Origin: Parelaphostrongylus tenuis
Taxonomy: Eukaryota > Nematoda > Chromadorea > Rhabditida > Metastrongylidae
Reading direction: 5' to 3'
Assembly (NCBI GenBank): GCA_019055375.1
Contig: JAHQIW010005186.1
Location: forward strand, 62,001-126,000
Length of the DNA stretch: 64,000 nt
In this document: positions 1,114-61,639 of the stretch, piece by piece
How positions within the stretch are numbered: position 1 is the first letter of the stretch
How the letters are laid out: each line of letters starts with the position of its first letter
Notes under the pieces: generated by a model
Told to the model about the DNA's origin: nothing
Databases searched by the model: none
Seen by the model: only the letters and a program-made list of their open reading frames with translations
Made by a program: the position numbers and the translations under genes

Positions 1114-1509
1114 GATTATTTACACATCAGAATCACATCTAGATATCCATCCACAGTTACAGTGCCCCATTAGCATGGTATGATACAGTTATTATATCTT
1201 ATATAATACTTAACACAGACACATTCAACAAGTGACTATACGGACTAGATCAATAGTGCCTTCTTCCTTTCGAAATAGTCGACATTGTGACATTTTCGCC
1301 GCGAAGTCTTCGGACTAACTGCATATCTTTTGGCATAATTGTGACACGGCGAGCATGTATTGCCGCAAGATTAGTGTCCTCGAACAAACATGTCAGATAG
1401 ACCTCGGTAGCTTCCTGAAAAGTGTAACCTAGAGAAACGACAAAGCATGTTCCAAACTGTGGCCGTGAATGTTTCAACAGATTCTATGGGTAATCCTTTC
1501 ATTATTATT

Positions 1510-1690
1510 TGAGCCAACATGTCATGTGGTCTGGTAAAGGCTCTTGTACAGCCCGAGACACGTGTTTCGTCCTTACAGACTCATCAGCCGGGCAGAACCC
1601 GTCGTCTGTCGATCTTTTCATAGTCAGTTCTCTTGGGAGCGTCACACTCCTCATATGTAGTTATCGACGACCTACGTTTTACACTCTATG
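1510..1690 (-). repeat. Partial copy of hammerhead repeat family 1
   Basis: Shares the CATGTGGTCTG end, the CTCTTGTACAGCCCGA block and the ribozyme with copies at 4722-5112, 12190-12535 and 22793-23160. It is truncated at the end distal to the ribozyme. Confidence 0.65.
1551..1593 (-). ncRNA. Hammerhead ribozyme motif, family 1
   Basis: Read on the minus strand: helix I GCCCGG, core CTGATGA, helix II GTC..GAC, GAAA, palindromic helix III ACACGTGT, cleavage base C, then TCGGGC closing helix I (one G-U). All invariant core bases are present. Family fact: CUGANGA and GAAA with this three-helix order define the type I hammerhead. Activity is inferred. Confidence 0.75.
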
Positions 1691-1734
1691 CCAGGTGTCT
1701 ATGTCATTCACCTAACACAGAGTGTTTTCTATGG

Positions 1735-1795
1735 GTAATTATTATAATAATAATTAATTAATAATAATAATAATTAATTATAATTATGTTTGTAT
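1735..1795. repeat. AT-rich simple repeat (TAA/TTAA)
   Basis: Low-complexity run of TAA, TTA and TAAT units. Confidence 0.8.
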
Positions 1796-4721: not shown

Positions 4722-5112
4722 TGAATGGGACACATGGTTTGTTGATTGGCTCTTGTACAGAGCGACGCATGGGTTTCGCCTTGAGCAGCCTCGTCAGCCG
4801 GGCAGAGCCCTTCGTCTTTAGCCAATTCTTTCGGGTGCTTCAGTTCCCCACTAAGAGTAGGCGACGACAAACGATTTACAAAATTGCCGTCCAGTAAAGC
4901 CAGAGCAATCGAGTGTACAACATTGTCGATCTAGTGATTTTTCACCTGACGGCAATTATGTGAATCGTTCCTCGTCGCCTACTCTTAATGGGGGACTGGA
5001 GCACCCCGAGAGGATTGGCTAAAAGACGAAGGGCCTTCCCGACTGACGAGGCTGCTCAAGCCGAAACACGTATATCGGGCAGTATAAGAGCCCATTAACA
5101 CACCACATGATA
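4722..5112. repeat. Palindromic copy of hammerhead repeat family 1
   Basis: Two inverted arms, each ending in the CATGTGGTCTG-type sequence, meet near 4920. Each arm carries a hammerhead region: decayed on the minus strand (about 4758-4800, helix II short by one C) and good on the plus strand (5038-5079). The arms also share CCTACTCTTA and the GGTGCTCCAGT-type block. Confidence 0.7.
5038..5079 (+). ncRNA. Hammerhead ribozyme motif, family 1
   Basis: Helix I CCCGA/TCGGG (5 bp), core CTGACGA, helix II GGCT/AGCC, GAAA, helix III ACAC/GTAT (one mismatch), cleavage base A at 5074. Core bases are complete; helix III has one substitution relative to the palindromic ACACGTGT of sister copies. Confidence 0.75.
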
Positions 5113-5867
5113 TAATGGTTTAAATGATAATTATGAGACATACTGAAATTTGAGCGTGGTCTTAAGCCCTAAGAAAGCAATCGAAACGAACGGTGAGATG
5201 GGACACATTTGATTGCTCCGTGAAAATCTATGAAACGCAAAAACGTGAATGAGCTAAATTGTCGCGTATGTTCCAGAGATGGAATGTCTAGAAACATGGT
5301 AATCTAAGCTTGCCTCAACCGGTCAAAACCTGTCGAATTTCAAGTCTTAACAACGAAACTCATACGTTCCTGTACGGACGTGTTCAACCGTTTGTTTTAC
5401 GTCCTTTCTCACTTAGATACCTAGATGGTCCGTCTTCACTAATTGTGCGGACGCCAGCACATATTCCAAATGATTTATTGCTGGTCGTGCGTATAGTATT
5501 ATTCGGTTTCCTGACGTAACTCTGTAAGGATTTTTCAAGTCTTCATTTTATCGTTTCCAAGGAATGGTTTTCGGCGGAGGATCCACGGCTGGGCTTCCTA
5601 CTAGTTGATTCGGCGATGGTGTTAGGCCCAAATCAAAAGCAGAGATTAGAAAGAAAATCAACCGACCAGCTTACGGATGATGTAGAAGCCGAAGGCCCAT
5701 TTCTCACTGACATCCATATGACGACTTTATGATACCCGTGAATCTTAAATCCAAATCTCTTCAACAAGTCGTTTATCCACCTCTGATCTCTAACGAAGCG
5801 AATGCACTCTTCACAGAAGAAGTGAATAACAATAAAATCAAACTGACCACTGAAAGGCTAAAATAAG

Positions 5868-9021: not shown

Positions 9022-12000
9022 GTAAGTTCCGATCGATTTTGAGAGAATTTCAGTCATTTTGTCATTTTTTCGAGGTCATATTCAATTTCATCTGTCATTA
9101 TGAATACCGTTTTGTCTTAATTCGTGTCTAGTTCTGCGCTTACTCAGATTTAATCTTCTTTTCGCTTGAAATCTGGCGTTATGCGAGCCAATTTGTCATT
9201 CTAAATGGCAGCTTCAGCTCAAAATAGTCATGTGGCTTGTGAATTAGTCGATTTTTTCCCACAATTGAGGCCATCTTGAGAGTTTTGTTTGGTGCGATTA
9301 TGTTTGGACGATTGGATCTCGGCAAGCTTCCGGGGTAATGCCGCCTTCACGCCATTTGGTGGCTCTGGTGTTACACTCTGAGATCCGCCCGTCGTAGAAG
9401 AAACGCTGGCAAGCACATATAGTGGTGATTAGTGGCTCCGAAGCAAACATCATTGTGGAATGACATTTTTCCAAAAGGCGAAAACATACCTCTGGTGAGG
9501 AATGTCTTGATCTTTTATAGATCAAATGAGCGGTGGCATACGTAAGAGATGGCTAGGAATTCTCCGGACCTTTTTAGTTTTTGTTGATTATTTTTCGTGC
9601 ATTTAATTTTTTGTTTTCACTATCGCTTAGAGCAGCTTCTTGCGGTTATTTTGATATACAACACTTATACATTCAATTCCAGTGTTCCTAGTATTATGCT
9701 GCCTGTTTAGCAGTGTTATGAGTTTCAAATGTACCTTAGAGAATTGCGAGGGAGGCAAAAACTCGACCTTGAAGCGGGGGTTGAACCCATGTTTCAACCA
9801 TACCGGGGCGCCTATTACCGTTACACCACCGAGGCCCCGTTCACCTACCACTCATACCAAATAGCTCTTTATCATAGCTATCAGCGACCAACTTCTAACA
9901 GGTGGCCTCGATGATGTAGTGGTAGCATGCGCATCCACGGTATGGGTGAAACGCGGGTTCAGCTCCAGCCTGAGGTCGAAATTTTGCCTACCACTCCGTT
10001 CTTCTAGAGCAGTATTTGAAACATGAGAACACTGCAAACAAAGCAATGTAAACATAAGAAATCTGGAAATTTCATAAGTACGATGGCTGCCAGCTTAACT
10101 GGGATTATAGAGCAATATTGCTTAACCGACCAAAAACTTTTGGTTGGTGGGCTGATGGTCATGATTGAGAGATATTGAAGAATGAGTGGTGGGTAAGCGG
10201 TGGATTCAATGGTGTAGTGGTAGCACGCGTCCCGGTACGGATGAAACACGGGTTCAAGTCCCGTCTAAGGTCGTATTTTTGCTGACCGCTTAATTCTCTT
10301 AGGTTTATATGTAACATCATAACACTGCGAAAAATGCAGTAAATATACACGTATTTCGAATATTACTTATCAAGTGGCTGTCAACACAGCTGGGTTTATA
10401 AAGCGAAATCGCATACACGACCAAATTTGTTAAAGGTTGGTGGCCGAGAGGTATCATAGAAATATTGAAGAATGAGTGGCGGTGCGGCTATATCTCTGTG
10501 GTGTAATGATAGCGCGCGTCCCGGTACGGATGAAACGCGGGTTCAACTCCCGTCTGAGATCGAGTTTTTGCTCACCACTCGATTGTCTGAGATATATTTG
10601 GAACATCATAACACTGCGAATAAGTGGTAAAGAAACAAGAAATCTTAGGCTTCTATAGTAAACGGTGACATGCTAAGAGATGTCAATATTGGGTTGGCCA
10701 GATTTTTTCCAGACTTTTTCTTCATTGTCGGTAGTTTTCATTCATCCAAGTCTCTGTTTCTACTATTGTATTGAGCAGCTTCTTGCGGTTATTCTGGTAT
10801 ATAACGCTTAGACATCTGTCCTTAAATGGAATTGTCCCAAGAGCAAAAAAGTATGTTAACGCTACACGAGTCTCGTTTGTGTTCAGATGCTGCTTTGGAA
10901 CGCAATGATACTCGTGTAGCATCAACAATCCTTTTTGCTCTCGAAGCAGTTCCATCTTGAAGCAAATTTATTTGTGTTATTATCAAAACAACCTCAAGAA
11001 GCTGCTCTAAACGATAGTAAAACGAAAACTCAAACGCATCAAAAATGTTTAGCAAAAAACGAAAAGGTCATTTCTTGCCAACCCATTAGGTCTAAAGAAG
11101 CACCACTGCCGTTTTGGACCTCTTTCTCTTCGTTTCAATGACAACACCGTTACATTGGAATGATGTTCTAGTCATGAAGCTGCTTTATAGCACATCAAAC
11201 ATTTCCATCTACTGAGCAGTTGCAGTCTAGCTGTCCAAAGCGTTCTTGAACATTCCCCTTCTTTATAACAATGCAGAAACAATCATTGTAAATATGCGCA
11301 ATGAAAGATAGAATGTTAACGGTATAAAATGACCATATATCTATTTACTTAAAGTGCATACAGAGATATGAGGATCGATCTGAGCGCGTAACATATCACC
11401 ACGCAAGTAAACTGGATACCGCGTATTTTGAAGGTAGCAGTGCCAACTTAGCCTCAGGGAAACACAACTGTAGTCATACATCTCGTTGATAGCTCTTAAC
11501 CTCGCTGTAAACATTCAACATAGTCTATGAGAATGTTTATAGCTGTTTCGAGGTTGGTATGTCAGTGGCTTATGTACGTTTTGGCCGTATCATCCGCTTC
11601 ATCGGAGCCACACGCCCTATAGGAACCATTCCACAAGTATAACCTACTTACATATCTGTGAGCCTCCTAGATTAACTGAGATTACTAGAACCTTTGACTC
11701 GAGAGTCGTTTAGTTTCACATGACCTTTCCACGAACTACTCCGTTTCCTTCCCATAACCTTTTCCTTGATGCGATAGCATCGCTTTCACATGCAAGACAT
11801 TTTATTCCTTTCACATCGGAGTGTGCGCTTGGAGCTTTTTGTGCTCTAAACTTTCTTTCTGATCGGTTGTAGGCCTGTTACCCTTTGGGTTCCCCTCGGT
11901 ACTGCTCTTTTTTTACATAGAGCCATCGTGGCCATTCCGTACATAAGCCTGACCCGACTATACGCCGCAGTGGTTCGGTAATTTAGTAGTTCCATAATTC

Positions 12001-15000
12001 CAGCCTCCCGGTATCCAGTTATTCAGTGAACCTACTCACTCAACTACGTATGGTGATACTGCTATTGTATTGTCATTATTACTGTAAGCAATTATATCCA
12101 AAATATGAGTTGTTTTCTCGTGATTACGTGAAGAGACCCGCGTGACAAAGGAGACAAGCCACTACAAACTGGGAGCATCCTATTTCGAGTTAGGGCTCAG
12201 ATAACAGTTATGAGATATGTTGAAATTTGAGCGTGGTCTCAAGAAATCACTCGAAAAGAACCGTATAATATATTTCAAAACACCAGCCAAGAGCAATCGA
12301 GTGTACAAAAGGAGTGCTGTTCTAGTGATTTTCACTTGACACCAATGTAGTGTAAATCGTTCGTCATCGCCTACTCTTAGTGTGAGGACTGGAGCACCCG
12401 CAGAGGAATGGCTAAAAGACGAAGGGTTCTGCCCGACTGAGGAGACTTTCAAGGTCGAAACACGTGTATTGGGCTGTACAAGAGCCCATTTAACAAGCCA
12501 CATGACAAGTTGGCTAGATCGCAATTATGAGGAACTTTGGGCTAGTTTTTACTGTGTGCTAGAGACTAACGCAAAACTCAGTACTGCACTACATCAGCCA
12601 ATATACGCCTCACACTGAACTTTGTAGCAAGGATGGGGAGACGTGGTTTTTGGTGATAGCACGGAGATGGATTTCACTGAAAAAGTGCTAATAACACGAT
12701 ATATCCCGTACGATCACCACACTCCCCTCTCCTTCTATAAGGTAAGGTTCATTGTGGAGCGCGTGGCTCTGATGAAGCGGGCGATACCGCTGAAACGTAC
12801 GTAAGCCACTGAACTGCCAACCTCGATAGGCTTCAAACATTCCACAGCATTTCTCTAGGTTTCTTGCATTTCTTCTGTCTAGGAATCAAGAAAGGGTGGC
12901 CATAGTTGGGATTTAGTTGATAAATTCTATTGACAACTACTTTCTGATTTTGGTAAGTTTGAGCGAAGACCTATAAATTATAATTTAAGATAAAGATTCA
13001 AAAGATCAGTAAGTGAACGAATGATATCACTTTTTGTTGATAACTTCGTTTAAAAAAAGAGACAGTGCTAATGAACGTTGTATTTAAGTGAAGTACGCAT
13101 CACTAAACACCATTATGCAAATCGCGCGTGTGGCGCAGGGGTTAGGGGTGCTCTGCGACGCACTCTTCGATTAATTGGTGGTTAGATCTGAGTGCAGGGC
13201 TCAGCAAGTCTTCTATCCTTTTAAGGTTAATTAATTGGAATCAGACTCTTCTGAGAGGATAGCAGCACTGATCTGATGCATCGGTAGGCCACCACGGGTC
13301 ATTATAAAGGTCAGATATGCATTTAATCACTTCGAACGATGGTTGATTAAAACGAATGTATGGCGATATCTTAGATATTGATCAACGGCGAGAGCTTTAT
13401 CCCTAATCCTTTTCCCACTTTGCTGATCAACAATAAATGAAATTGTCCGCATTCTTCACAATTCCCCAATCATATAGGTTAGGAAGTAACATTTGAGGCC
13501 CTTTTCTTTATTCAAAACTAGCACTGTGCTGGTACTTTCTTTTTCTTTAGAAACTCGATGGTTAACGTTTCGGCAGCAGCGCCTTCGTTAGAGCCTAGAC
13601 GTTTATCTCATACCATATCTGATTACTCGGTTAATATTTCGTACTCATCAAAAATTCAATGGAAAATAAATCAGCAGTTTAGTCATTCTGAAAAGCCCCA
13701 CCTTACCTATTTTTATGAAAGTGGTCACCGGTCGAGTGTGACACAATTTGTAAAGTGAACCACACTCAGACTAGAAGATGAATCAGAGATAAGGTGCCAT
13801 ATCACGTGTTATGTTTAGGCATTCCCCCTCCTATTCATTTCTGGTCTTTTGCGGTCTATCTAAAAAGCCTCAAGGATTTTTTAAGACTAGCCATCGAGTT
13901 TCAAGTAAAAGAAAGAAAGTACCAACCTCATGCAGGTTTTAAATAAAGAAAAGGACAGTTCGTAGGCAAATTCGCATTTCTTCAGCCATGCCGAGGTTTG
14001 ATAGTCGGACTTTTGGGTTATAATATTTGATGATCACATAGTGGATAGTGAAGGTAGTGTGGCAGGTGGTTTGAGATTGTTAGCCAATCGTTGATTTTCA
14101 ATGAAGAATAACTGCAGTATGCGGTTTCCCTGGAATCTAATAGAGATCTTTAAGCTGAACCAAGTCATTTTTCTGCCACATGTCGCATTTTTCACAAAAT
14201 AGGTTCCGCCAGAGGCTAAGATTCTAGGTTGTCGATTTATGCTAGTCGTTGCACTGATATGTGTTCATGTTACATGTGGCTCCTTTCCCACCTGTGACTT
14301 CTTTACTACTCAGTCGTAGCAACTGACGGGTATGTTTTGGACGCATATTAGATGGGATAAATCTTTCGACCTTGGTCAACCTCCTGAGAGACACGCCATC
14401 CATCCGTCTTCATAAATCATCATTCGAGTTAATTGAATGTAAGTGTTGCCTTTACAATCACTCGTAAAGGCTTACTGATCTATCGAGTCAGTGTTGTCAT
14501 CTTCTCAGACAAGTCTCATACCAATTTGCCAACTCCGGAGGGATGGAAGACATGCTGAGCCATGGACGCGGGTTCAGACCATCGACCACATGTGTGTCGT
14601 AGGGCACCGCTGACCACTGGCGCCAGGTTCTAAACGTCCAGATTGGCGATTTATGTTGATCGTCACGTTGAAATGCATTCTTATTCCCACTTGTTACTTT
14701 GCTACGTAGTCGTACTAATGTGTCATTCCGGCCCTTAGTCTTGTATAGATTGTACCTTATCTTAGTTGATTATGGAACTCCTGAATGCTCGTAGAACTGC
14801 TCCATAATTCGTTCTCTTGACATCAAGGCAAACTGTAAAGGTAAATCGTAAAATGACATAATATTAGCATCTCACAGACTCACGTAGTGCATCATTATGA
14901 AGGAAGTGTTTCAAATAAACAAATAGCCTTTGGACTATTCAAGGATACTAAGTGATATGATACCTTTTGATCACAAGCACGAATTGTACTGGAGTTCACC

Positions 15001-21000: not shown

Positions 21001-24000
21001 GGCACTTCTCTCTAAAAGGTTAGTTATGTTGGATCATCACTCATGGTCTCTTTATGTGGCTGTATAGTAAGAGCTTTGTCACCATAATAGTTCCATTTTA
21101 GGTTGCGAAGTTAGTCCCGATGTCTCCGTGTCACAGGCGAAGTATCACATCAAGCTGCTTGTTCCTACAGCTGAAGGCATGACCGACTTCGTGCTCAAGT
21201 GCGACACGGTAGGTTCTCCTTAATGAATTGAATTTATTCATTCAATTTTACACGAATCTTCATCACAATCTACTGTGCGGATCCTAGCTTGTTTTTTGGA
21301 TTTGTTTGCTCGCATTCATCCTCCACAAAATTTGCTACGTCATTAGTCACTGTGCTATGATGATGTAATGAAATATCTGCTCTCAATTCGAACATCGTTT
21401 TAGGAACACCAATATGCTCGATGGATGGCAGCATGTCGCCTTGCATCAAGAGGAAAGTCTATGGCCGATTCTTCCTATCCACAAGAGGTGGAGAGCATTA
21501 AAAACCTACTCCATATGCAAAGTGCGAGTAAGTTGATTTGAAGAATTTGGAGTCACGTAGACAATCCACGTTTTATTTCTAAGCTAAACATGAAGTCATT
21601 AGAATAAAGTTCATTCGAACTTGTGACCTTTGCGGGGCTTCGCTTTTTCAGAGCTGGGAGAACCATGTTGTCTACAAGTCAGTCAGCCTAACACCTGCAA
21701 TACTTTGACAGCGAAAAATCATCAGGCTTGATTTCTGTCGAAGTGATGTAGGTTTTGGCTGGCAGAGTTGTAGACAACGTGGTCTCACCAGACTGAAGAA
21801 ATTCAAACCACCGAAACATGGACTGTTTGAATAAATTGTATCATAACAACCTCATGTTGGGCTTTCAAGTAGACATTTTATGATATTGAACAATGCCGAG
21901 ATTAACCCTTTGCGAGCGCTAAGGAGTATTTTGATCCGTGATGCTAATTGCTCAGTTCGGAGACTACGAGGATTGATGCGCGCCTCCGATAGTAATCCCG
22001 TTGATTATGAGCTTTGAAGAAACGTGGTTTTTACTAAATGATGGAATATCAGTAAGAAGACTTTTGTGAAAATGATTTGGGTAAGATCGTCATCAAAGTT
22101 TTCTCATAATCTACATTTGCTAACGGCAAAACTACATCGTTGTAAAATTGAACATATTTCCAGGTGCATATTATAGGTGCTACTGAACATTTGTGCTCAT
22201 TTATTTATATTTTTGTAATCAATCGATTGCTAAAGAAATTGATATATTAACTATTATGCTTATTTTGTGGAAAAACTTCTACTAAAGTACATTCTAGTTC
22301 CATTTTAGTTTTGCATTTGAAGTAGATTTTCTTAACGTAACGGATTTTCTGGTACTATGTAGTGAAATCTTGATCACAGGCAATCTCTGTCTCTCCAGAA
22401 AAATTGAATATCATTGGAGAGATTTTTGTAAACTTAATTTAGTTGAAAGAACTCCGCATTGTCTTGAAAATCTTTGCTCTCCAATACGAATTCTGTGAAA
22501 TGTAGTGGCGTTCTGCGGAATGTGCCTATGATTCTTTGGTTTTTTTTTTTAGACAAGAGCTCACTAGTACATTAGAAATCGTTCGATAGCTTAAGAATGG
22601 AGATCTTAGTACCGTATATGGTTTCTAAAAAAACTTTAAGTTTACGTTGCTGTAACAGAATGAAACCATGCTTATCCATAGTGAGTATAAGTTGACACAC
22701 AAAAGCTAGCACCCTTAGAACAACAGGGAGAAAGTTTTCTTCATGTTTCTACAGAGATCTTAACTCCTTAACGTAGTAGTCAAAACCTCATATTAATTAT
22801 TTGAGCCGGACCTATCATGTGGTCTGTTGATGGGCTTTTGTATAGCCCGATACACGTATAATATTTCAGAAATACCAGCTAAGAACAATCGAGTATACAA
22901 CACTGCCGTTCTAGTCATTGTTTCATTTGACGGCAGTGTAAATCGTTCGTCGTTGCCTACTCTTAGTGAGTAACTGGAGCACCTTGAGAGAGGATACCGC
23001 CTGACTGACGAGGCTGTTAAGGCTGAAACACGTGTATCGGGCCGTACAAGATCCCATTGACAGACCACATGACATGTTAACTCAAATAATAGTTATGAGA
23101 TATGTTGAAATCGAGCGTGGTTTCAAGGGAACACTCGAAACGAATAGTATAATCGAAACATTGTTGATTGCTACTACTGAGTAGCATGTTATGCAGTGTG
23201 AAGATCGTTTTTGACCAATAAAACAATCATTTTGTTATTGTTTTGTCATGTTGCAAGCAAAAATAGCCTCATTGAAATCTCTTTCATCATAACCTTCATT
23301 GACCTACAATTAAACCCTCCTAAATGGCGATACAAATTTGAATCTCATTAGAAATACCACACTGTCCTTGAAAAGCGCCCCACCAGCGCTATTTGTAGCC
23401 GTCCGACCCGCTCTCAGCCGAAATTGGCTGCTGTGGGCAAAGGGTTCATAGATAGTCAGTCGGTCTGGGGAAATACTATAAGTTGCACTAGCACTTCTGT
23501 TCTTCACTTTCTCTCATTGAATCTTTTCAGCAAATGGACGGAACGAGAATAACGCAATGCGTCGTTCGACTCCGGTAAAACTGCCAAACGAGTTCAATGT
23601 GGAAGAGTACGTCTCGCAAAGATATGTTCGGAAAGCGCGAAGCAAACAGGCTGTCCGTTTTTATACCTGTTCATACTCGTCTTGAACTCTTCTCCATGTA
23701 TGAATTTACCAACTTCGCCCTTTCAGCTACAACAGCGTGTCGTCGATGCCCATGCAAATGTCCGTCAGTTGTCATCTACCGAGGCGAAACTGCAATATAT
23801 CCGAGCATGGCAGGCGCTCCCCGAGTATGGCATGCACTACTTCATCGTACGCTTCAGGAACGGTCGAAAGGCAGATTTAATCGGTTTGTCGACATCAAAT
23901 TACTTTCGTTGTGTGTTCTTTATGGTGTAATTTGGTTCAGGAATCGCTATTAACCGATTGGTAAAGATGAACATGGATAATGGTGAGAGCATAAAGACAT

Positions 24001-28419: not shown

Positions 28420-28580
28420 AATCACGTGCTATCACCATAATTAATGTTTCTCCATCCTTGCTACAAAGTACGGTTTAGTGTGGAGCGTAGATCACTGACG
28501 AAGCAGGCGACATCGCCGAAACGTATGTATGGGTCTGAATTACCAACCTCAGGAAGGCCCTAAACATCCTCAAAGAATAT
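28420..28580 (+). repeat. Hammerhead repeat family 2, weaker core
   Basis: Matches 12735-12850. The core CTGACGA (28495-28501) and GAAA (28518-28521) are kept, but helix II is preceded by four unpaired bases and helix I pairs poorly, so activity is doubtful. Confidence 0.5.
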
Positions 28581-29865: not shown

Positions 29866-30504
29866 CAATGTAATGTTTGGAATAAGAATGCAAAAAAGGA
29901 AGAAATTATGATTTAAAGTATCGTGGAGTATATTGCACAAAACAAATGATTATTCAATGAATAATAAGATAAATAAGCGCATAATATGCAACATTTGTGA
30001 TAATACATCGATTAAATAAGGCAAATAATAATACAATTACATTATCAATAATAAACTATGAAAGCCGTTTCCTAACAAATTATCTATCGATTTTCCTACC
30101 AAGATTTAATATTAAGAAAAATTTCCCGATTTCATATCAGTTTAAATCGTTTTGAGTGGGTCTGTAAAAGAGCGGTCGATAGCACAGGCTTCATTCATTA
30201 TAAAAGTCGCAAGCTCGACTGCCGGTCAGCACAGCGTCAGGTGAGACCACCATCTGAATGGACTGATTATTTTTCACTCGGCATAGATTCCTTTAGAGGA
30301 CTATTTAGCCTCAAGGGATCGACGGAACCGAGGGAGGCCGCTTCTGAAGAGTCCTAATAGGACGAAGTAGGCGCCTATATAGCACTAGACCTATCGGCTT
30401 AAAACATATCATGTCCTTATCAGATCAAAATCTCTAGTGTTCTTGCTGCATTTTTCGTAGTGTTATGATTTTTAGTAAATACCTAGGAGAACTAAGCAAT
30501 GAGC

Positions 30505-30610
30505 AAAAACACGACCTCAGGCGGGAGTCGAACCCGCGTTTCATTCAGACGGAGCACGCATGCTACCACTACACCAGGAGGTACATTCCCGTCTGAGGTC
30601 GTATTTTTGC
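30505..30610. repeat. Head-to-head tRNA-like family B units
   Basis: A reverse unit (about 30511-30585) is joined directly to the end of a forward unit (CGTCTGAGGTCGTATTTTTG). This suggests a rearranged tandem array like that at 9904. Confidence 0.55.
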
Positions 30611-30802
30611 TTACCACTCGATCCTTTTAGGCATTTATGAAACATTATGACACTGCGCAAAATGCAATGAAAACACTAGAAGTTTGAAATATTACTTATC
30701 ACAATGGCTGTCAGCTTAACTGGGTTTACAAAGCGGAATCGCATACACGATTAAACCTGTCAAAAGTTGGTGGCTGATAGCTGTTATAGAGATTTTGGAG
30801 AA

Positions 30803-30870
30803 CTGTGCTGTAGTGGTAGCATGCGTGCTCGGTATGGCTGAAACGAGGGTTCCACTCCCGTCTGAGTCGT
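30803..30870 (+). repeat. tRNA-like repeat family B
   Basis: CTGTAGTGGTAGCATGCGTG and GGGTTCCACTCCCGTC, preceded by the same spacer sequence as in the 9904-10570 array. Confidence 0.55.
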
Positions 30871-31298
30871 GTTTTTGCTCACTACACAATTCTCCTAGGT
30901 ATTTGTTCAACGTTTCCTATTGTTCATATTCTGTTTCTCATAGCTCTCTATCAGTATTTTTCTGTCCCTCGTCTTGTCGATGTCGCGTGAACTGAGCAGG
31001 ACAAAAAGGTCCCGCTGCAAAATTCTAGCGATTTTCATTTGGAAATGAAGAAGTGTGGTCCTAAGTCACGTTTGAGTGGAACTAGAATAGATTCTGATCC
31101 ATAACATAATTGACGATTATGTTCTTTTTTCGTCAGACTAAGTTTATGACTACCGTTTAGTGATTGGCTTAAGATGTTAATATCACAAATCTTTGGACTC
31201 GAGAAAAGCGGTCTCAGCAGGAGTATTGTTGCGAAATCTACCACATGCACTATCTGCAATAATTACGACTAGCACTGACATATCGTGAACGATAAACA

Positions 31299-32280: not shown

Positions 32281-32874
32281 TAGGTCGTTCTGTAAGCTTT
32301 GGCACCAGAGCAGTAAACACCAAATTTGATAACCAGAAGTGATTAGAATTACATAATTTTGTATCGTTCAAATACGCCTTTTCTTGTAAACATTTTGTCG
32401 TAGAACTTTCCTATACTTGCTTCGAGATAGAGCTGTCTTCGGAACTAATTCGCTTGCTGCTCATTCACGGATGACGCGTATGGAAAACTGCTAGTGAATA
32501 GGCGCACAAGATTCGTGGGAACTTGGGGTGATGATACGGTTGCAGAAAGGACGGCTGGGAAGTAGTTCAAAAATTTCGCAGCTGGAGAAAACAGTCTGGA
32601 AGATCAGTTGCGTTTGGGCCGTCCATCGGAACCTCCATTAATCGTGTGCGCTGCTTCACGAGCATCTTCGCCTACGTGCCATTCGTGCATGAGTACCAAG
32701 CGAATTTGTTCCCACGACACCTCCATCTTGAAGCAAGTATAAGCAAGTTGTATTTCAAAATTCAGGAAAAAAAGTGCAATTGAACGATACCAAAATCATG
32801 CAGAATTGATTATTTCTGATTGATAAATATGAGGTTTACTGATCTGATGCCAAAACTTGTGGAAGTACCCAATA
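32281..32874. mobile_element. Foldback mariner derivative
   Basis: Inverted arms over 100 bp begin TTAGGTCGTTCTGTAAGC (left) and its diverged inverse (right, CAAAACTTGTGGAAGTACCC). The middle reads GDDTVAERTAGK, a stop, then FKNFAAGENSLEDQLRLGRP on the plus strand, which is the helix-turn-helix to linker region of a mariner transposase. Homologous to 60505-61030. Confidence 0.65.
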
Positions 32875-33015
32875 ATTGATTGGAGATAGCCGAATCACGC
32901 AAAAGCCCGGTACAATATAAGAACTGATTGATAGAATATTAGAATATTCGTTCGACTTAAAGCTGTTTATTACAGACGAGTAGTTATTAAAGTTGCTCTA
33001 TCAGACGCTCTTCAG

Positions 33016-33160
33016 CTGACAATGGTCATGATACAAGCCGAGGATCTACCAGCAATGGATCTGATGGGACATCAGATTCATACGTCAAGCTTTTTCTTCT
33101 TGCCGACAAAATGGACAAATTTCAAACGAAAGTGCAAAGAAAATCACTGACTCCACGTCT
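33016..33160 (+). pseudogene. Broken duplicate of the synaptotagmin C2A exon
   Basis: After a CTCTTCAG acceptor the sequence matches exon 61462-61629: LTMVMIQAEDLPAMDL. It then loses one base (CTGATGGGACA against CTGGGTGGGACA), which shifts the frame, and it diverges after AAATCACTGA. The intron sequence upstream and a mariner foldback are shared too, so this is a segmental copy and not a retrocopy. Confidence 0.8.
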
Positions 33161-43314: not shown

Positions 43315-45990
43315 GTATGGTAACAGTGACCTCATACTTGTCATCTAGCTGAATCCAGCCATATTGAAGCGTATTAACTCCGCCCCGTGCTCTGTCTCGA
43401 CTCGGCTCCGCCTCACAAGCAACGGAGACGGGGATCGATGCCTCACACGCTAGAGTTTGCTTTCTTCTATTAACTTCTATTATTCACTAACTACTTTGTT
43501 TTTGTTTACTGGTTTCGCCTATCTAGAAACTCAACGAGGTTTCAGGTTATTAGGATTTGAATATCACGAAAGTGAGCAAATTTCGTGTAGCTAGAAATGC
43601 TCAATCAGCTTTCTTTCATATAAAACCAGGCGTGCTTTGAATTACTCTAGTAACGAAATATGTGGGGAGAATTAGGAAGATTTCGTTTATCGGTAAAGAG
43701 TGTTTCCAGAGAGGCGAAGTTTGCAGACGTATTGTGGTCACACAAAGCCGAAATTCTTGACTTCAGTCAGTGTAGAAGTACTAGGCGCAGTGATTGTAGT
43801 TCATCCAACGGTGCACACCATTGTTTTTTTAAGCTTTCTAGTGCTCAGAAATTTTCTGTATGTTTGCTCCTGACAGCTGCAATATTTTTTTTAATCCATC
43901 CCATGCACGACTTTGTTTCTTTAACTCTTTGAAAACTCGAGTAGTTTTTGTATGTCTGTCTCCTGACGCATACAATATTTTCAATTCATTCTCTAAAACG
44001 ACGGAAAATTGCTGAACAGAAGCCATCAAATGCCCTTTTTCAGCTGTTACTCAAAATCTGAGTGAGATCTGGAAAGTTCACACTCTCATTCGAGCCGCAG
44101 GTGGTATCAATGTAATTCCCCTGTTTAGAGTTCCTCGAATAGGCTGCAGCTGATCGCGCTAATTTTAGTGCTGTTAAAATCATTCGAAGATTTATTAAGA
44201 TACATATGAAACAATTAGTAGAAAATTAGCCATAATAGCGATAGATTATGTATGCGTGTGCCTAATTACATTGTTCTATTTTCGCTCCAGTAACTCCAAA
44301 TCGTTCTGACAGAACAGTTTCCTATTGAACATTGAGTTATAGCGTCCTAAAAGAGACTGGAGAAATTCCGACAAACTGGTGCAATGAATTTGAGCATATT
44401 CTGAGGCCATTGAGATCAAATGCGATTTTGAAAGGACCATCAGCTTGGATGTTGTTCAGCCTGTTTATTGTGATTTCATCGCTACAACGTGTTTTACCGA
44501 TATACAAAAATTTTGTAAGTGCAGTAGGTAGAGCGGTCTGTAAGGCTTTTAATGGTAGATATTAAGTGAACACTATTTTTAAAATTTCACTGCATTTCCC
44601 GAAAGGAGATTTATAACCGATATTTGAAATGTTCACGATCTCGCAGAATAGGTTTAGAGACCTCTTTGCATATAATTTCTCAATGCAGGCCTCATGATAG
44701 GGCATAGTAGGACTTCGGGGTGGGAATAATCATAAGTGTTTTACCATTCCTACAGCAAGTATGCTTGAAACTTCAAGACTATAGAGGGTATGATGGTGTC
44801 ATGTTGCCGACGAAACATAGTAAGTCTTTCGCTAATTCATTTTCGGTCGACACTAAGTATCCGTGAGAAACGATAATTAAAACGTGACCTCTATCGAGTT
44901 TTTCTAATTGAGGTTTTTTTTCCCGTCTATTTCGCATTTTTCTCACTCATCCTCCACAAGGTGCAAATCAGTCGTTCTCTTCTCGTTGTTTTCGTCCAAT
45001 TTCACGGCTTCCACTTTCTGATGCCCTCCGCTATTATGCACAACTCTTGCTCAATCAAGCGCACACTGGAGAACAACAACCCTCCGAGTACGTCTGTCTT
45101 TGTGGATTCACACGTTTAGTGTTGAGGCTTTCCATGTTGCCAGCTGGATCTAATTGTGCGAAAAATTCCTTAATGAAGTGAAAACCAATTAAGATAAAAG
45201 AACTCATTGTACAAACTTTGTAAAAAATCTAGGGATGGAAGGAAAATGAGTGCCTTTCTGGATGTAGTCAATCTGCTTCTTCCTTTTGAGTCCTTCTTAT
45301 ATGACTTGTGCGATAACTTTGAATTCATGCTATTCTTGGTTCGAAGTTAGTGCGCTAGATTCGTAGTCCTCAAGGGGCTTCGTCTACTGTCTTTTTATAG
45401 AAATGCAGTAGGGAGAATGGTGGTGGTGACTATTATTAATCCGTCGAGTGGACGAAAATGTTCATTCAGGCCAGGCAAAACAAATAAGCAGCGCTGAAAT
45501 TGAAACCGCCTCCAAAAACCTCCTATTAAATCTCTGTGAAACGTAGTGTAGCCTGAGTATCAGTCGTAAGATTTCAATACCATGGGCTTGTTTTTGAAAC
45601 GATCCGTCTTCTAAAGACGAAGTCTTGTGCTCTTCATTACTTTAATTTTATAGTGGTAAATTATAGACTTTTGGAAGCTTTTTCCATAATGTCCCCCAAT
45701 ATGATGGCAACGGTTGTTAGGCAATCGTCACTTGTATGTGCAGCACACTCTTACGGTTCTCAGTTAGGGCCGGTGAAGACGACTGGCGGCTAGGCTACTT
45801 CCAGAATATTTCCTTAGGTGAACTCTTATAAGTGTTGTTGGAATCATTCAAATTTGGTGTACAGTAAATGGAAACGAACTCTTTGACGTACTTAATAGTT
45901 AGCTTTTAGAGGCAGCAGCCACTATAAAGCGAACTATTAAGAAAGCGCTTTGATTTTACCTTGATACTTTCCCAATCTTAGTTTATTATT

Positions 45991-46573
45991 ACTGTTTTTC
46001 TTCTTTAAGCAAAACACGAGGTGTTATAATAAAATTTATTCACAGCTGACGTTTCGGCAGTTCGCCTTCTTCAGAGCCTGGAAAGGTCAAATTGTCCGCA
46101 ATCCAATAAGCCAAACACCTCCAACACTCTTTTAGAAAAAATCACCAGACCTAGATTTCAATCGCATCAAGCACAAAATCAACTCTCAACATACTCACCG
46201 CTTTTTATATGTGTTCCACTGAATGATTCAAGTGGAGACAACCGCAAGGAGATCACATAGGCTCGTAATGCACCTTACACATCAAAATAACAGTCTTATA
46301 TACTGACTAAAATCACGTGTGATAACAAGGCATTCCTCCCTGCGGTTCATAGTTGGATTGAAAAAAAAACTTTAAAAAACTTTAAAAGAGTGTTGGAGGT
46401 GTTTGGCTTATTGGATTGCGGACAATTTGACCTTTCCAGGCTCTGAAGAAGGCGAACTGCCGAAACGTCAGCTGTGAATAAATTTTATTATAACACCTCG
46501 TGTTTTGCTTAAAGAAGAAAAACAGTAATTATATTGAAGCATGCCGAGGTTAATAGACAGTCGGTCTTGGGAA
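45991..46573. mobile_element. Young foldback retroelement-like repeat with 13 bp target duplication
   Basis: Two 144 bp arms (45991-46134 and 46383-46526) are identical inverses by eye. The direct repeat TTAGTTTATTATT occurs at 45978-45990 and 46574-46586, so the insert is 45991-46573 with a 13 bp target-site duplication. Each arm holds a hammerhead-like core (CTGAAGA, GGC/GCC, GAAACGTC), and the tail ATGCCGAGG recurs in copies at 13985 and 21890. Long, variable target duplications and hammerheads suggest a Penelope-like relative, without coding sequence. Confidence 0.65.
46439..46473 (+). ncRNA. Minimal hammerhead-like motif, family 3
   Basis: Core CTGAAGA (46443-46449), short helix II GGC/GCC with an extra A, GAAA (46462-46465), palindromic ACGT helix III, cleavage base C, helix I GGCT/AGCT. 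Its mirror copy is at 46044-46078 on the minus strand. Helices are short, so function would need dimer formation. Confidence 0.45.
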
Positions 46574-48344
46574 TTAGTTTATTATTTTATCAACAATTTC
46601 ACTGAAAAAGGCAAATCTATTAATCTATAATCTAATCTACTATTTTGAGCTTTAATTCTCGCCGAATATCATCATAATCTCACATGCCGCAGCATAATTT
46701 TAGTTTTACAGAGTTGCTCACAACCCATGGGGACATCAGCTACACTATTCAGTTCCTTATTACTTCCACAGACAAGTCTGCCACTAGGTTCTTGTCTTCG
46801 ATATACCTTAAAATCATTATTGAAATCAGTGATTCTTATCGAAAACTTGATACTTTCGTTTTCCTGCACCTTGCTTCAATACAACCAACCATATCTCGGT
46901 CGTTTAGACCTCTTTAACTGTTAATTTTAATAGGCTCAATCTGATGAAAAGGAAAAGGGAATAATAGAAGCTAAAAAGCCAACGTCTGTCCTTTTAGTGA
47001 AGAACTAATTTAATTTGCCGTCTTTTCATATCAACACATTGAGATACTCTAAGCATGTGCCACAGTGCTCAGAGGGCAATCGCAGAGAGAGTGTTTAGTT
47101 AGAGTTTAAGAAAAAAGAAACTGGTTATTCTTGGAAAGCAATAATGAAATGACCGATGTTTTCCAAAGTTGCGATGTCATAAATCCTTCTTCCTATATCC
47201 AGCCATTTCACGAAAAATCTAGACTTTCGAAGTTTTCTATTTTGACACGAAAGAACGATTTTCTGGCTCAAAAACGCTGTGCATATCTGGGCCTCAGAAT
47301 GACTTCGGAAAATCAGACTATTTTCTTTTGAAAAATTTAGTTTCGTCGAACTGTGATCAGTGAAAGAAGGAACCTATCCATACGCATTCAATGAAATCGT
47401 CTTAGTTAGATAGCCCTCAACATGCTAATCCGCACTTTTGTTTTCCTCTTTTTGCGCTGCAGATTGAGTTTCTACTGGGAATTCCTTTCCTAGTGCGATA
47501 GGGTTCACACGATTTTAGTGCTTTCGTCTAGCTACTCTCAACAAAGAATTCGGAAACTCATAGAATTTTGAGCAACTTTCGTTCTGTTTACTAACCGGAT
47601 ATTCACTGAATGATCTTTGAATGGAACCCTAAACTAACTCTCTATCAATGCTTTGGCTTGCGTTGCCAAGAATTGCTTTATTAATTTGAAGCACCGTAAT
47701 GCAAAAGTTGGCTTCTCTGAAAACTCCAGAAAATGGATTACTTTTTGAGCAAAGATCTAAAAATCACTTGCACTCTATTCAAATCTGTAATTAGTACAAT
47801 CAAGGCTTCAAAAACCAATTAATGCATCTTCGAGACTTGCAGACACTAGTAATTTAATTTTTTGCAAAAAAGTGGGCAGAACCCGAAGAAAAAAGCGAAC
47901 GCAAGATTTCCTCAATGTTGGTCTTTGAATTCAACTTTCTGACTCTCATGTGTGAAAGTCGAGATGTGTTGGGTGTGGTCTTTGAAGAGATTTTCATGCG
48001 AAAGTCGAATCTACTTAATTCACAACATACAAAATATTCTCCGTCATTTAATCTTCGTTCATTGCCATCTCATAAATTCTTGAAATGATTTGATTTCATT
48101 TTGGCTAATCAGTCCACTAATCACTTTAGAAACAAGCACTTGCTCGCTATCTACAGATGCGAAAGAATTTCTTATTGGTAAAACGAAAAAACGGCAAAAC
48201 CTCATGGAGAAAATAGTATAGATTTTACAATCCTCACTTTTGTTTACACCTTAATTCAATTTCATTGCAGAGTGCAATATGAAATACAATCTTAAGAATG
48301 CTTATATATGCGTAAAACTAAAGCCGAGCTGGCTTTGAACCCGT

Positions 48345-56997: not shown

Positions 56998-57044
56998 GGC
57001 CATACACTCGTGTTTCGGAGGTCTCGCCCTCCTCGTCAGTGGCC
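56998..57044 (-). ncRNA. Hammerhead ribozyme, left arm
   Basis: Minus strand: helix I GGCCA/TGGCC (5 bp, perfect), CTGACGA, helix II GGAGG/CCTCC with loop GCGAGA, GAAA, helix III ACAC/GTGT with loop GA, cleavage base A. No mismatch in any helix. Confidence 0.85.
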
Positions 57045-57068
57045 CACGCCCCTCATTAAGCCCTCAGG

Positions 57069-57114
57069 GGCCACTGACGAGGAGAGCGAGCCTCCGAAAC
57101 ACGCGTGTATGGCT
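57069..57114 (+). ncRNA. Hammerhead ribozyme, right arm
   Basis: Helix I GGCCA/TGGCT (one G-U), CTGACGA at 57074-57080, helix II GGAG/CTCC, GAAA at 57096-57099, helix III ACAC/GTGT with loop GC, cleavage base A at 57109. Differences from the left arm sit in loops or keep pairing. Confidence 0.83.
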
Positions 57115-60149: not shown

Positions 60150-60455
60150 GTATTTCACCTCTCTCAAAACTTTATGACCAACGTTTCGACGACCCCGCCT
60201 TCGTCAAAGCCTCGGCTTATACATCTTACCATATCAAATTAATCCGTTGATATCGTATTCATCAAGATCCAAGAGAATCCAATAGTATTTCATTCCTATT
60301 CTTACAGAACTGTTAGGTCGTCCCATAAGTTTTAGCATAAGATATTAACGGAATAATTAGATATGGTATGATATATACGTCTAGACTCTGACGAAGGCGG
60401 GGCTGCCGAAACGTTAGCCATCAAGTTTTGAGAGAGAAGAAATACCAAACTTGTG
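60150..60455. repeat. Foldback repeat, ribozyme family 3
   Basis: Arms CTCTCAAAACTT..AACGTTTCG and the inverse near 60395-60440. The right arm has CTGACGA, GGC..GCC, GAAACGTT; the left arm core is TTGACGA. The middle contains a mariner-type end (TTAGGTCGTCCCATAAGT). Confidence 0.55.
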
Positions 60456-60504
60456 CAAGTTTTAGTTAAAGAGAAGGACAATATGTTTCTATCTTTACCG
60501 AACT

Positions 60505-61030
60505 AATAGGTCCTTTTATAAGTTATGATACTAGCGCAATGAACACTAAATTCAATAATCAGAAGTAATTAAAATTGCATGATTTTGGGTACAACTTGTC
60601 TTTATTCAACTTAAGATGGAGCTGTCAGGGTAACAAATTCGTTTACTCCTCATGCACGAATAGCGTGTAGGGAAAAATGCTAGTGAAGAGGAGCGCAAGA
60701 CTAATGGAGCTTTTCTGGACGCTCGAGCGCGACTGATCTCTCAGAGTGTTCTCTTTACGAACCACTTCTTAACCGTCCTTTGTGCAACCGTACCATCGCC
60801 CTAAACTTCATTAATCTTGTGCACCTCTTCACTAGCATTTTTCCCTACATGCCAATTGTACATGAGTAGCAAGGGAATTTGTTCCTAATACAGCTTCTTC
60901 TCAAAGTAAGTAAAGGCAAGTTGTTCGCACAATGTTCGCAATTGAACGACACCAAAATCATGCAGTTTAATTCACTTCTGATGATAAATCTGGTGTTTAT
61001 TGCTCTATTTCTTTATGGAACAACCTAATA
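60505..61030. mobile_element. Foldback mariner derivative, sister of 32281-32874
   Basis: Same arm sequence (TTGAACGACACCAAAATCAT, ACCAGATTTATCATCAGAAG-type inverse). The minus strand reads KINEV, a stop, GDGTVAQRTVKKWF (60700-60870), the helix-turn-helix region of a mariner transposase. Confidence 0.62.
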
Positions 61031-61044
61031 ATTAACATACCTCT

Positions 61045-61330
61045 AGCTTCGAGTGTTTCTTCAGACCACGCAAATAGTTCAGTATGCCTGATAGTTTTTT
61101 GAGATCTTTTGGGACCATGCACGTGATCTCTTATGGTGAATGATCCGTTTGAAACGTTCGTCATCGACTCCTCTACGTAAGGAGGTTCTTACGCGAGAGA
61201 ATTGATTCGGAGAAAGGCAATTTGACAACTAACAAGGCTGCAAGGCCGAAACACGTGTATCATATAAGTACCCATAACAGACCACATTCATGGTTCAAAA
61301 ATGACTAGGCTTCCTAATGAATAGTTTGTA
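61045..61330 (+). repeat. Decayed hammerhead repeat family 1 in synaptotagmin intron
   Basis: Contains CGACTCCTCTACG-like and GCAAGGCCGAAACACGTGTA, then CAGACCACATTCATG. The core is CTAACAA, so it should be dead. It is absent from the matching place in the duplicated copy near 32880-33010. Confidence 0.6.
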
Positions 61331-61461
61331 GGTAACCAAATCACGCAAAAACCAGATACAATTTAAGGATAAATTGATGAGATATTAGGAAATTTGTTTG
61401 ATTGAAAGCTGTCTATTAATGATGAGTAGTTACTGAAGTTGCTCGAACAGATGCTTTTCAG

Positions 61462-61629
61462 CTGACGGTCGTCATAATACAAGCCGAGGAGCTACCAGCA
61501 ATGGATCTGGGTGGGACATCAGATCCATACGTCAAGCTTTTTCTTCTACCTGACAAAAAGAAGAAATTTCAAACAAAGGTGCAAAGAAAATCACTGAATC
61601 CTGTATTCAACGAAAGTTTCACATTCAAG
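61462..61629 (+). CDS. Synaptotagmin C2A exon
   Basis: Calcium/phospholipid-binding C2A domain of the vesicle-fusion sensor. After a CTTTTCAG acceptor, 56 codons read [40 protein letters not shown], then [16 protein letters not shown] before GTCAGA. The loop 1 calcium-binding aspartates (AMD and SDP) are both present, as is the polybasic KKKK. It joins exon 58366-58459 in phase 0. The rest of C2A and C2B lies beyond the right edge; no further exon was recognised to 64000. I cannot tell which worm snt paralogue it is. Confidence 0.93.
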
Positions 61630-61639
61630 GTCAGATGTC

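Follow-up and report, generated by a model that had tools for sequence, protein, structure and literature searches.

Family A is a short hammerhead ribozyme repeat with five insertions in a 64,000-nucleotide stretch of Parelaphostrongylus tenuis DNA (contig JAHQIW010005186.1, positions 62,001 to 126,000; here called the window). Our analysis indicates that family A is probably a retrozyme of the metazoan kind, a non-autonomous retroelement with a hammerhead, which resides in a nematode and is moved by the machinery of Penelope-like elements (PLEs). Its insertions carry the PLE layout in a PLE-rich genome, which points to the long-sought helper of ribozyme elements, and its young arrays look like records of single RNA molecules being copied. 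A circular template, the start sites of reverse transcription and priming from both strands thus become directly testable, and a nematode joins the hosts named in the sources consulted. An earlier sequence-only reading of the window had proposed a retrozyme-like system of head-to-tail units in a nematode genome. This interpretation is supported in substance: tandem copies and an autonomous partner with the same insertion layout both exist, while head-to-head is the structure met most often. A synaptotagmin C2A exon in the window fits an animal genome, and two SL2 spliced-leader RNA matches above the curated cut-off indicate a nematode, SL2 being an RNA of nematodes.

The same reading had noticed that one block of sequence precedes one hammerhead and follows two others, and had proposed a repeat of about 316 bp. 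We aligned family A copies to a ruler made of a tandem of positions 12208 to 12524, which confirms the arrangement and the head-to-tail unit and corrects its length to 317 bp. The block (TTATGAGATATG..) begins at 12208, 5' of the hammerhead with the CTGA core at 12437, and homologous blocks sit 3' of hammerheads at about 5131 and 23093. In the 12 kb copy a second round opens at 12525 with TTATGAGG; the 23 kb copy runs from phase 54 of the ruler round to phase 62, 8 nt more than one unit. The 5.0 and 23.0 kb copies have the same circular order and differ in their start and end points. Hence, the order of block and hammerhead is a circular permutation, the same 317-bp head-to-tail unit being cut at a different point from copy to copy. 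The unit has a G+C content of 43.8%. No sense frame covers it, the frame list showing only a 114-amino-acid (aa) antisense frame there, and a frame of its own with reverse transcriptase (RT) and GIY-YIG is absent; family A is therefore not classed as a PLE.

A strict hammerhead descriptor finds 6 sites in the window, compared with a mean of 0.005 and a maximum of 1 in 200 dinucleotide shuffles. The descriptor was drawn up after the copies had been seen, which makes the contrast somewhat flattering but leaves its size in no doubt. Only the copy at 1551 to 1593 passes in Rfam (Hammerhead_1, 34.9 bits, cut-off 34). The palindromic helix III noted earlier is present in the family A hammerhead (ACACGUGU), the core is kept by the majority of 51 aligned copies, and internal loops are visible in the alignment. 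At least three ribozyme families had been claimed for the window; several are indeed there, and our own grouping by core motif gives five (A to E; Table 1).

How are the units arranged when they insert? Three of the five family A insertions in the window are pairs of opposite orientation joined at their 5' ends. In these pairs the block stands at the 3' end of one arm and is missing from the partner arm, and most plausibly it represents the optional 3' tail that is familiar from Penelope elements. Age and decay mark the copies in the window. Clear target duplications flank 3 of the 10 window elements tested (13, 11 and 13 bp, each with 0 of 200 controls as good) and are wanting in the other 7 (20 to 137 of 200 controls as good). 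No clear duplication was found at the 12 kb copy (87 of 200 controls as good) or at the family A pairs at 22787 to 23154 and about 61045 to 61320.

We extended the analysis to the assembly (481.5 Mb in 5,105 contigs), where a query with the unit gave 6,698 first-look candidates; the 40 that were scored yielded 91 matches, a procedure that favours long copies. The 39 regions round scored matches, 13 sites chosen by pattern (exact 37-mer sites, one of them already in the first sample) and the window together provided 59 elements. Before counting, elements scoring below 140 were removed, as were three duplicates: L012 (of L011), L028 (of L027) and L051 (of L013). The five window elements were entered by hand without this threshold, which the 61 kb pair would fail; the ends of that pair and some other window ends were placed by eye, two with the duplication in view. 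Head-to-head (minus-plus) pairs make up 36 of the 59 elements, next to 11 plus and 10 minus copies, and a plain plus-minus (tail-to-tail) pair does not occur among them. A coarser count of family A neighbours over all the sequence collected gives 41 minus-plus, 40 plus-plus, 30 minus-minus and 3 plus-minus. Target duplications scoring at least 9 flank 14 of the 59 elements, compared with 0.61 expected from exchanged flanks. Pairs account for 12 of these (out of 36) and single copies for 2 (out of 21); the duplicated bases are 77% A+T, and the clear duplications are 9 to 17 bp long. Similarity is slightly higher between the two arms of a pair (0.829, 33 pairs) than between arms taken from different elements (0.806, 566 comparisons; p 0.003). 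About half of the arms (49/99) are longer than one unit and 86 span the predicted ribozyme cut; two whole ribozymes are spanned by only 5 of the 99 in this sample of older copies, three of these badly aligned. Two elements stand apart, a plus-minus-plus triple (L035, 509 to 1091) and a minus-plus-plus element (L060), each the sole one of its order in the sample.

The outer ends of the arms fall mainly at two positions. With classes set after the data were seen, 44 of 99 arm ends lie at phase 30 or below (median 11) and 40 at phase 45 to 88 (median 62). The predicted cut is at phase 261, which places the two positions about 67 and 118 nt past it and roughly 50 nt from each other. The two classes are combined, one arm each, in 22 of 36 pairs, compared with 12.3 expected (p 0.0002); in the pattern sample alone we read 5 of 7 two-arm pairs in this way. 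The inner ends are scattered and agree within 5 nt in 2 of the 36 pairs. Linear monomers starting at the ribozyme cut are ruled out as templates, because arm 5' ends lie within 4 nt of the cut in just 3 of 99 arms. As a separate observation, 40 of the 99 inner (5') ends crowd at phases 280 to 317 and 0 to 19; a pause, an RNA end or the limit of the first round are candidate readings.

These ends bear on whether satellite expansion, fold-back self-priming or an assembly artefact made the inverted and tandem copies, which we find the least credible of the explanations considered. An assembly in more than 5,000 contigs, in which long palindromes are hard to assemble, would favour an artefact, and the accessible part of PMC3846280 shows that its authors took the head-to-head PLE palindromes of Adineta vaga as self-priming. 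However, pairs are flanked by single duplications, which is evidence against an assembly artefact, though palindromes are error-prone to assemble, and also speaks against self-priming. Moreover, the scattered inner ends, together with outer ends set apart by the tail in 22 of 36 pairs, are not what a cDNA folding back to copy itself would give. The present data favour both-strand priming over self-priming, and priming from both strands would produce head-to-head pairs with one duplication.

Autonomous PLEs are abundant in the genome. All 150 scored candidates of a GIY-YIG search (1,723 candidates) are above the cut-off, with open frames of up to 902 aa, and among these 150 we counted by eye 20 minus-plus and 0 plus-minus opposite neighbours within 6 kb. 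The PLE locus that was read whole (L091) has an 892-aa frame with RT (PF00078) and GIY-YIG (PF01541), a 105-bp direct repeat (the pLTR repeats) and an inverted, 5'-truncated copy in head-to-head arrangement that is 99.8% identical. A hammerhead motif is present in both arms (6510, plus; 1493, minus), the tail is on one arm only, and a 12-bp identity in the flanks corresponds to a duplication of 9 to 12 bp, depending on the assumed arm ends. By our count of 31 loci (L061 to L091), the short position accounts for 24 of 34 PLE arm ends and the tail position for 8, the other 2 lying elsewhere; this count leaves out the 5' repeat row of L091, and L074, L078 and L084 could not be aligned to the ruler. 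The PLE ends lie about 63 and 107 to 119 nt past the predicted cut, and three of the four other loci with both arms in view have one end of each kind. Hence, family A has the end architecture of the PLEs at nearly the same distances from the cut. In the window itself, the family C insertion at 45991 to 46573 is a truncated insertion of such a PLE, up to 98% identical to PLE loci.

A long interspersed element (LINE)-type enzyme could in principle move the units in the manner of short interspersed elements, the head-to-head pairs arising by twin priming of the L1 kind. Duplications of 9 to 17 bp are compatible with LINE insertion too, and twin priming gives inversions of the 5' part. We regard this as very improbable, as the arms overlap and usually both hold the ribozyme region, so that the template is not split between them, and the PLEs of the same genome have matching end positions at matching distances from the cut.

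Tandem copies had been predicted, and the genome contains 384 exact ribozyme-core pairs at unit spacing (207 + 177), compared with 0 for a reversed-pattern control. From the first 100 places with tandem pairs listed we chose three young loci for their arrays. One (L092) has arms of 6.15 and 6.05 units within a 15-bp duplication; in the second (L093) the arms have 2.6 units, with a large deletion, and 3.5 units within a 16-bp duplication; the third (L094), with arms of 2.1 and at least 2.4 units, reaches the contig end, and its duplication is therefore beyond view. Complete units within a locus, both arms included, show 0 substitutions (45, 6 and 3 comparisons), whereas units of different young loci differ by 2, 4 and 3 to 4 substitutions. 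Length differences are one-base changes and the L093 deletion, and the single mismatch in L093 is in its outermost partial unit. Variants private to L094 among the three loci appear in units of both its arms. The arms end 70 to 81 and 115 to 131 nt past the cut, with one end of each kind in L092 and L093. As units are identical within a locus and distinct between loci, each insertion resembles a clone derived from a single 317-nt molecule. Repeated reading of a circle would be the simplest source of such uniform units, with a uniform tandem transcript as the rival. Folded as a circle, the young unit has a predicted energy of −95.2 kcal/mol, compared with −69.9 (standard deviation 5.3) for shuffles, 0 of 200 of which are as low; this fold is compatible with a circular RNA and is no demonstration of one.

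The rival just mentioned would have the PLE machinery move units from the linear multimeric transcript of an existing tandem array, with no circle and the hammerhead as a passenger. Tandem arrays are present in the genome, old copies cannot separate such a transcript from a circle, and a purified PLE takes unprocessed RNA and inserts its ribozyme mutants equally well (PMC11167929). However, the complete units in both arms of all three young loci are substitution-free and carry variants proper to their locus; such a source would have to be a separate uniform array for each locus, and the origin of these arrays would also need explaining. We consider a linear source unlikely.

We hypothesize instead that a multimeric family A transcript would be cut by the hammerhead into 317-nt units, which would be ligated to circles. 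A PLE protein would then cut the target and begin to copy the RNA into cDNA at either of two internal positions, those about 67 and 118 nt past the ribozyme cut at which the arms are seen to end; the block would be the optional tail between these two start positions. From both cut target strands, cDNA would be made once or several times round the circle, as the clonal units suggest, and joining of the two cDNAs 5' end to 5' end would leave the observed head-to-head pair in one target duplication. This scheme is in line with the behaviour of the purified PLE protein PAc: it cleaves both strands of the target and extends them, and its reverse transcription begins within the RNA, at two sites corresponding to the tail ends (PMC11167929). 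A more specific version, which we hold to be evenly poised between right and wrong, is that two PLE RTs work at once on one RNA circle: their start sites would lie some 50 nt from each other, the two strands of a single break would each prime one of them, and both would go several rounds. If true, reverse transcription would here be rolling-circle and double-strand target-primed, which would account for inverted arrays of identical units in a single duplication.

Several results weigh against movement of family A circles by PLEs. In vitro, PAc uses unprocessed RNA and can dispense with its ribozyme, and its start sites are alike on both strands, whereas most pairs here have one of each (PMC11167929); the one-of-each pairing is not predicted by the PAc result. 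An autonomous partner with matching ends had been anticipated, and the PLEs, with their RT, GIY-YIG and hammerhead, share layout and end-point spacing with family A but not the unit sequence. Fifteen of the 99 arm ends are outside both classes, and a duplication scoring at least 9 was not found in 24 of the 36 pairs. The fold of the old unit in the window does not stand out, with 131 of 200 shuffles as low. In old copies the doubled ends have an identity of 0.825 within arms, 0.816 to other elements and 0.849 to the partner arm, figures that do not tell whether they stem from one molecule. No measure of covariation in the family A hammerhead exceeds shuffles, and we therefore do not use as evidence that 89.2% of hammerhead cells in the alignment are paired, compared with 22 to 49% in slid structures. 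Finally, a tRNA-like repeat of the window, a small control, has 2 minus-plus, 3 plus-plus and 0 plus-minus among 5 adjacent pairs. Minus-plus order is thus found in this repeat as well and may extend beyond ribozyme elements, either because further non-autonomous elements share the machinery or because something more general produces it. Two further repeats served as a local control, with 1 minus-plus pair (R1) and with 3 plus-minus and 1 plus-plus (R2).

Among known systems, family A most resembles the metazoan non-LTR (long terminal repeat) retrozymes. As far as the accessible portions of PMC7229834 (Cervera and de la Pena 2020) go, both have a type I hammerhead, a non-coding unit of about 170 to 400 nt with low G+C (below 50%, no protein frame), tandem copies, target duplications longer than 4 bp and coexistence with PLEs. 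These portions do not describe the mostly head-to-head pairs with two preferred 3' ends that distinguish family A, and the word 'nematode' is absent from the text. Metazoan non-LTR retrozymes are also expressed as circular RNA, as family A would be in the cycle proposed above. With the PLEs, as partly accessible sources describe them (PMC3846280, PMC11167929), family A shares head-to-head inserts in one duplication, an optional tail on one arm, a hammerhead and an internal start of reverse transcription. In A. vaga, passages of PMC3846280 describe a typical Penelope insert that an adjacent inverted pLTR completes; a 9-bp duplication surrounds it, and one of the inverted pLTRs may bear a 31-bp tail. 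Family A differs from PLEs in lacking a protein frame and pLTR-ORF (open reading frame) sequence, and its arms may hold several whole units. The plant LTR retrozymes, in the accessible part of PMC7761336, likewise have a hammerhead-bearing non-coding unit thought to move via circular RNA. However, they have type III hammerheads, LTRs and 4-bp duplications, while family A has a type I hammerhead and its clear duplications, at 9 to 17 bp, include none of 4 bp.

What moves animal retrozymes has been a matter of proposals. Where accessible, the papers of 2020 name PLEs as strong or likely candidates, one of them stating that retrozyme repeats show no motif for deducing the partner (PMC7229834, PMC7761336), and a review of 2024 names LINEs or PLEs (PMC11722881, in part). 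In the accessible parts of the retrozyme papers the insertion layout is not described and the partner is only proposed; here we provide structural evidence for the partner. Our literature searches, with most subscription papers outside their coverage, found no head-to-head retrozyme arrays and no nematode retrozyme.

Table 1. Positions of ribozyme elements and their target duplications in the window.
Feature	Position	Strand	Remarks
Family A copy, one 317-bp unit (12208-12524) with its ends partly repeated	12189-12534	+	outer limits by eye
Type I hammerhead region of the 12 kb copy	12412-12495	+	predicted cut between 12468 and 12469
Family A head-to-head pair 4736-5197, left arm	4736-4897	-	no tail; decayed hammerhead core at 4797
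Family A head-to-head pair 4736-5197, right arm	4898-5197	+	block (tail) from 5131
11-bp target duplication of the 4736-5197 pair	4725-4735; second copy 5198-5208	.	0/200 controls as good
Second family A head-to-head pair (22787-23154), left arm	22787-22857	-	no tail
Second family A head-to-head pair, right arm	22855-23154	+	hammerhead core 23005; tail from 23093; duplication not clear
Single 5'-truncated family A copy	1495-1726	-	best-scoring hammerhead (1551-1593)
13-bp target duplication of the single copy 1495-1726	1482-1494; second copy 1727-1739	.	0/200 controls as good
Third family A head-to-head pair, decayed, left arm	61045-61105	-	score 49.5; limits by eye; duplication not clear
Third family A head-to-head pair, right arm	61140-61320	+	score 70; limits by eye
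Family A hammerheads	1.5, 4.8, 5.0, 12.4, 23.0 kb
Family B hammerheads	12.77, 28.5 kb
Family C hammerheads	46.07, 46.44 kb
Family D hammerheads	57.04, 57.07 kb
Family E hammerhead	60.4 kb
Family B hammerhead element next to the 12 kb copy	12730-12824	+	related: 28455-28550; inverted: 11520-11616, 433-574
Family C, cut-down insertion of an autonomous PLE: minus arm, then plus arm with tail	45991-46573	.	hammerhead motifs 46074 (-), 46443 (+)
13-bp target duplication of the family C pair	45978-45990; second copy 46574-46586	.	0/200 controls as good
Older family C pair, minus then plus	21571-21905	.
Family D, two hammerheads head-to-head	57014-57098	.
Family E inverted pair	60177-60480	.	hammerhead motif at 60388
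Family E pair	13500-14014	.	13771-13881 matches a PLE locus beside its GIY-YIG frame

Family D arms also stand head-to-head elsewhere in the genome: with 40 of 1,910 candidates scored, we counted by eye 10 minus-plus and 0 plus-minus pairs within 4 kb (C1934:61140-65136 and C3278:41082-45111, for example). In two of these pairs the arms lie about 3.9 kb from each other, as though they framed a longer element.

The tRNA-like repeat lies in minus-plus-plus-plus order at 9707 to 10630 and in minus-plus-plus order at 30451 to 30902, with a spacing of about 280 to 300 bp, like that of the ribozyme units. It has no hammerhead, and a weak Rfam match is present at 30338 to 30385 (19.5 bits, cut-off 34). 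The window also contains a synaptotagmin C2A exon, and a fold-back repeat immediately precedes this exon at both 32294 to 33154 and 60530 to 61632; the second copy of the exon is open (61465 to 61632) and the first is decayed.
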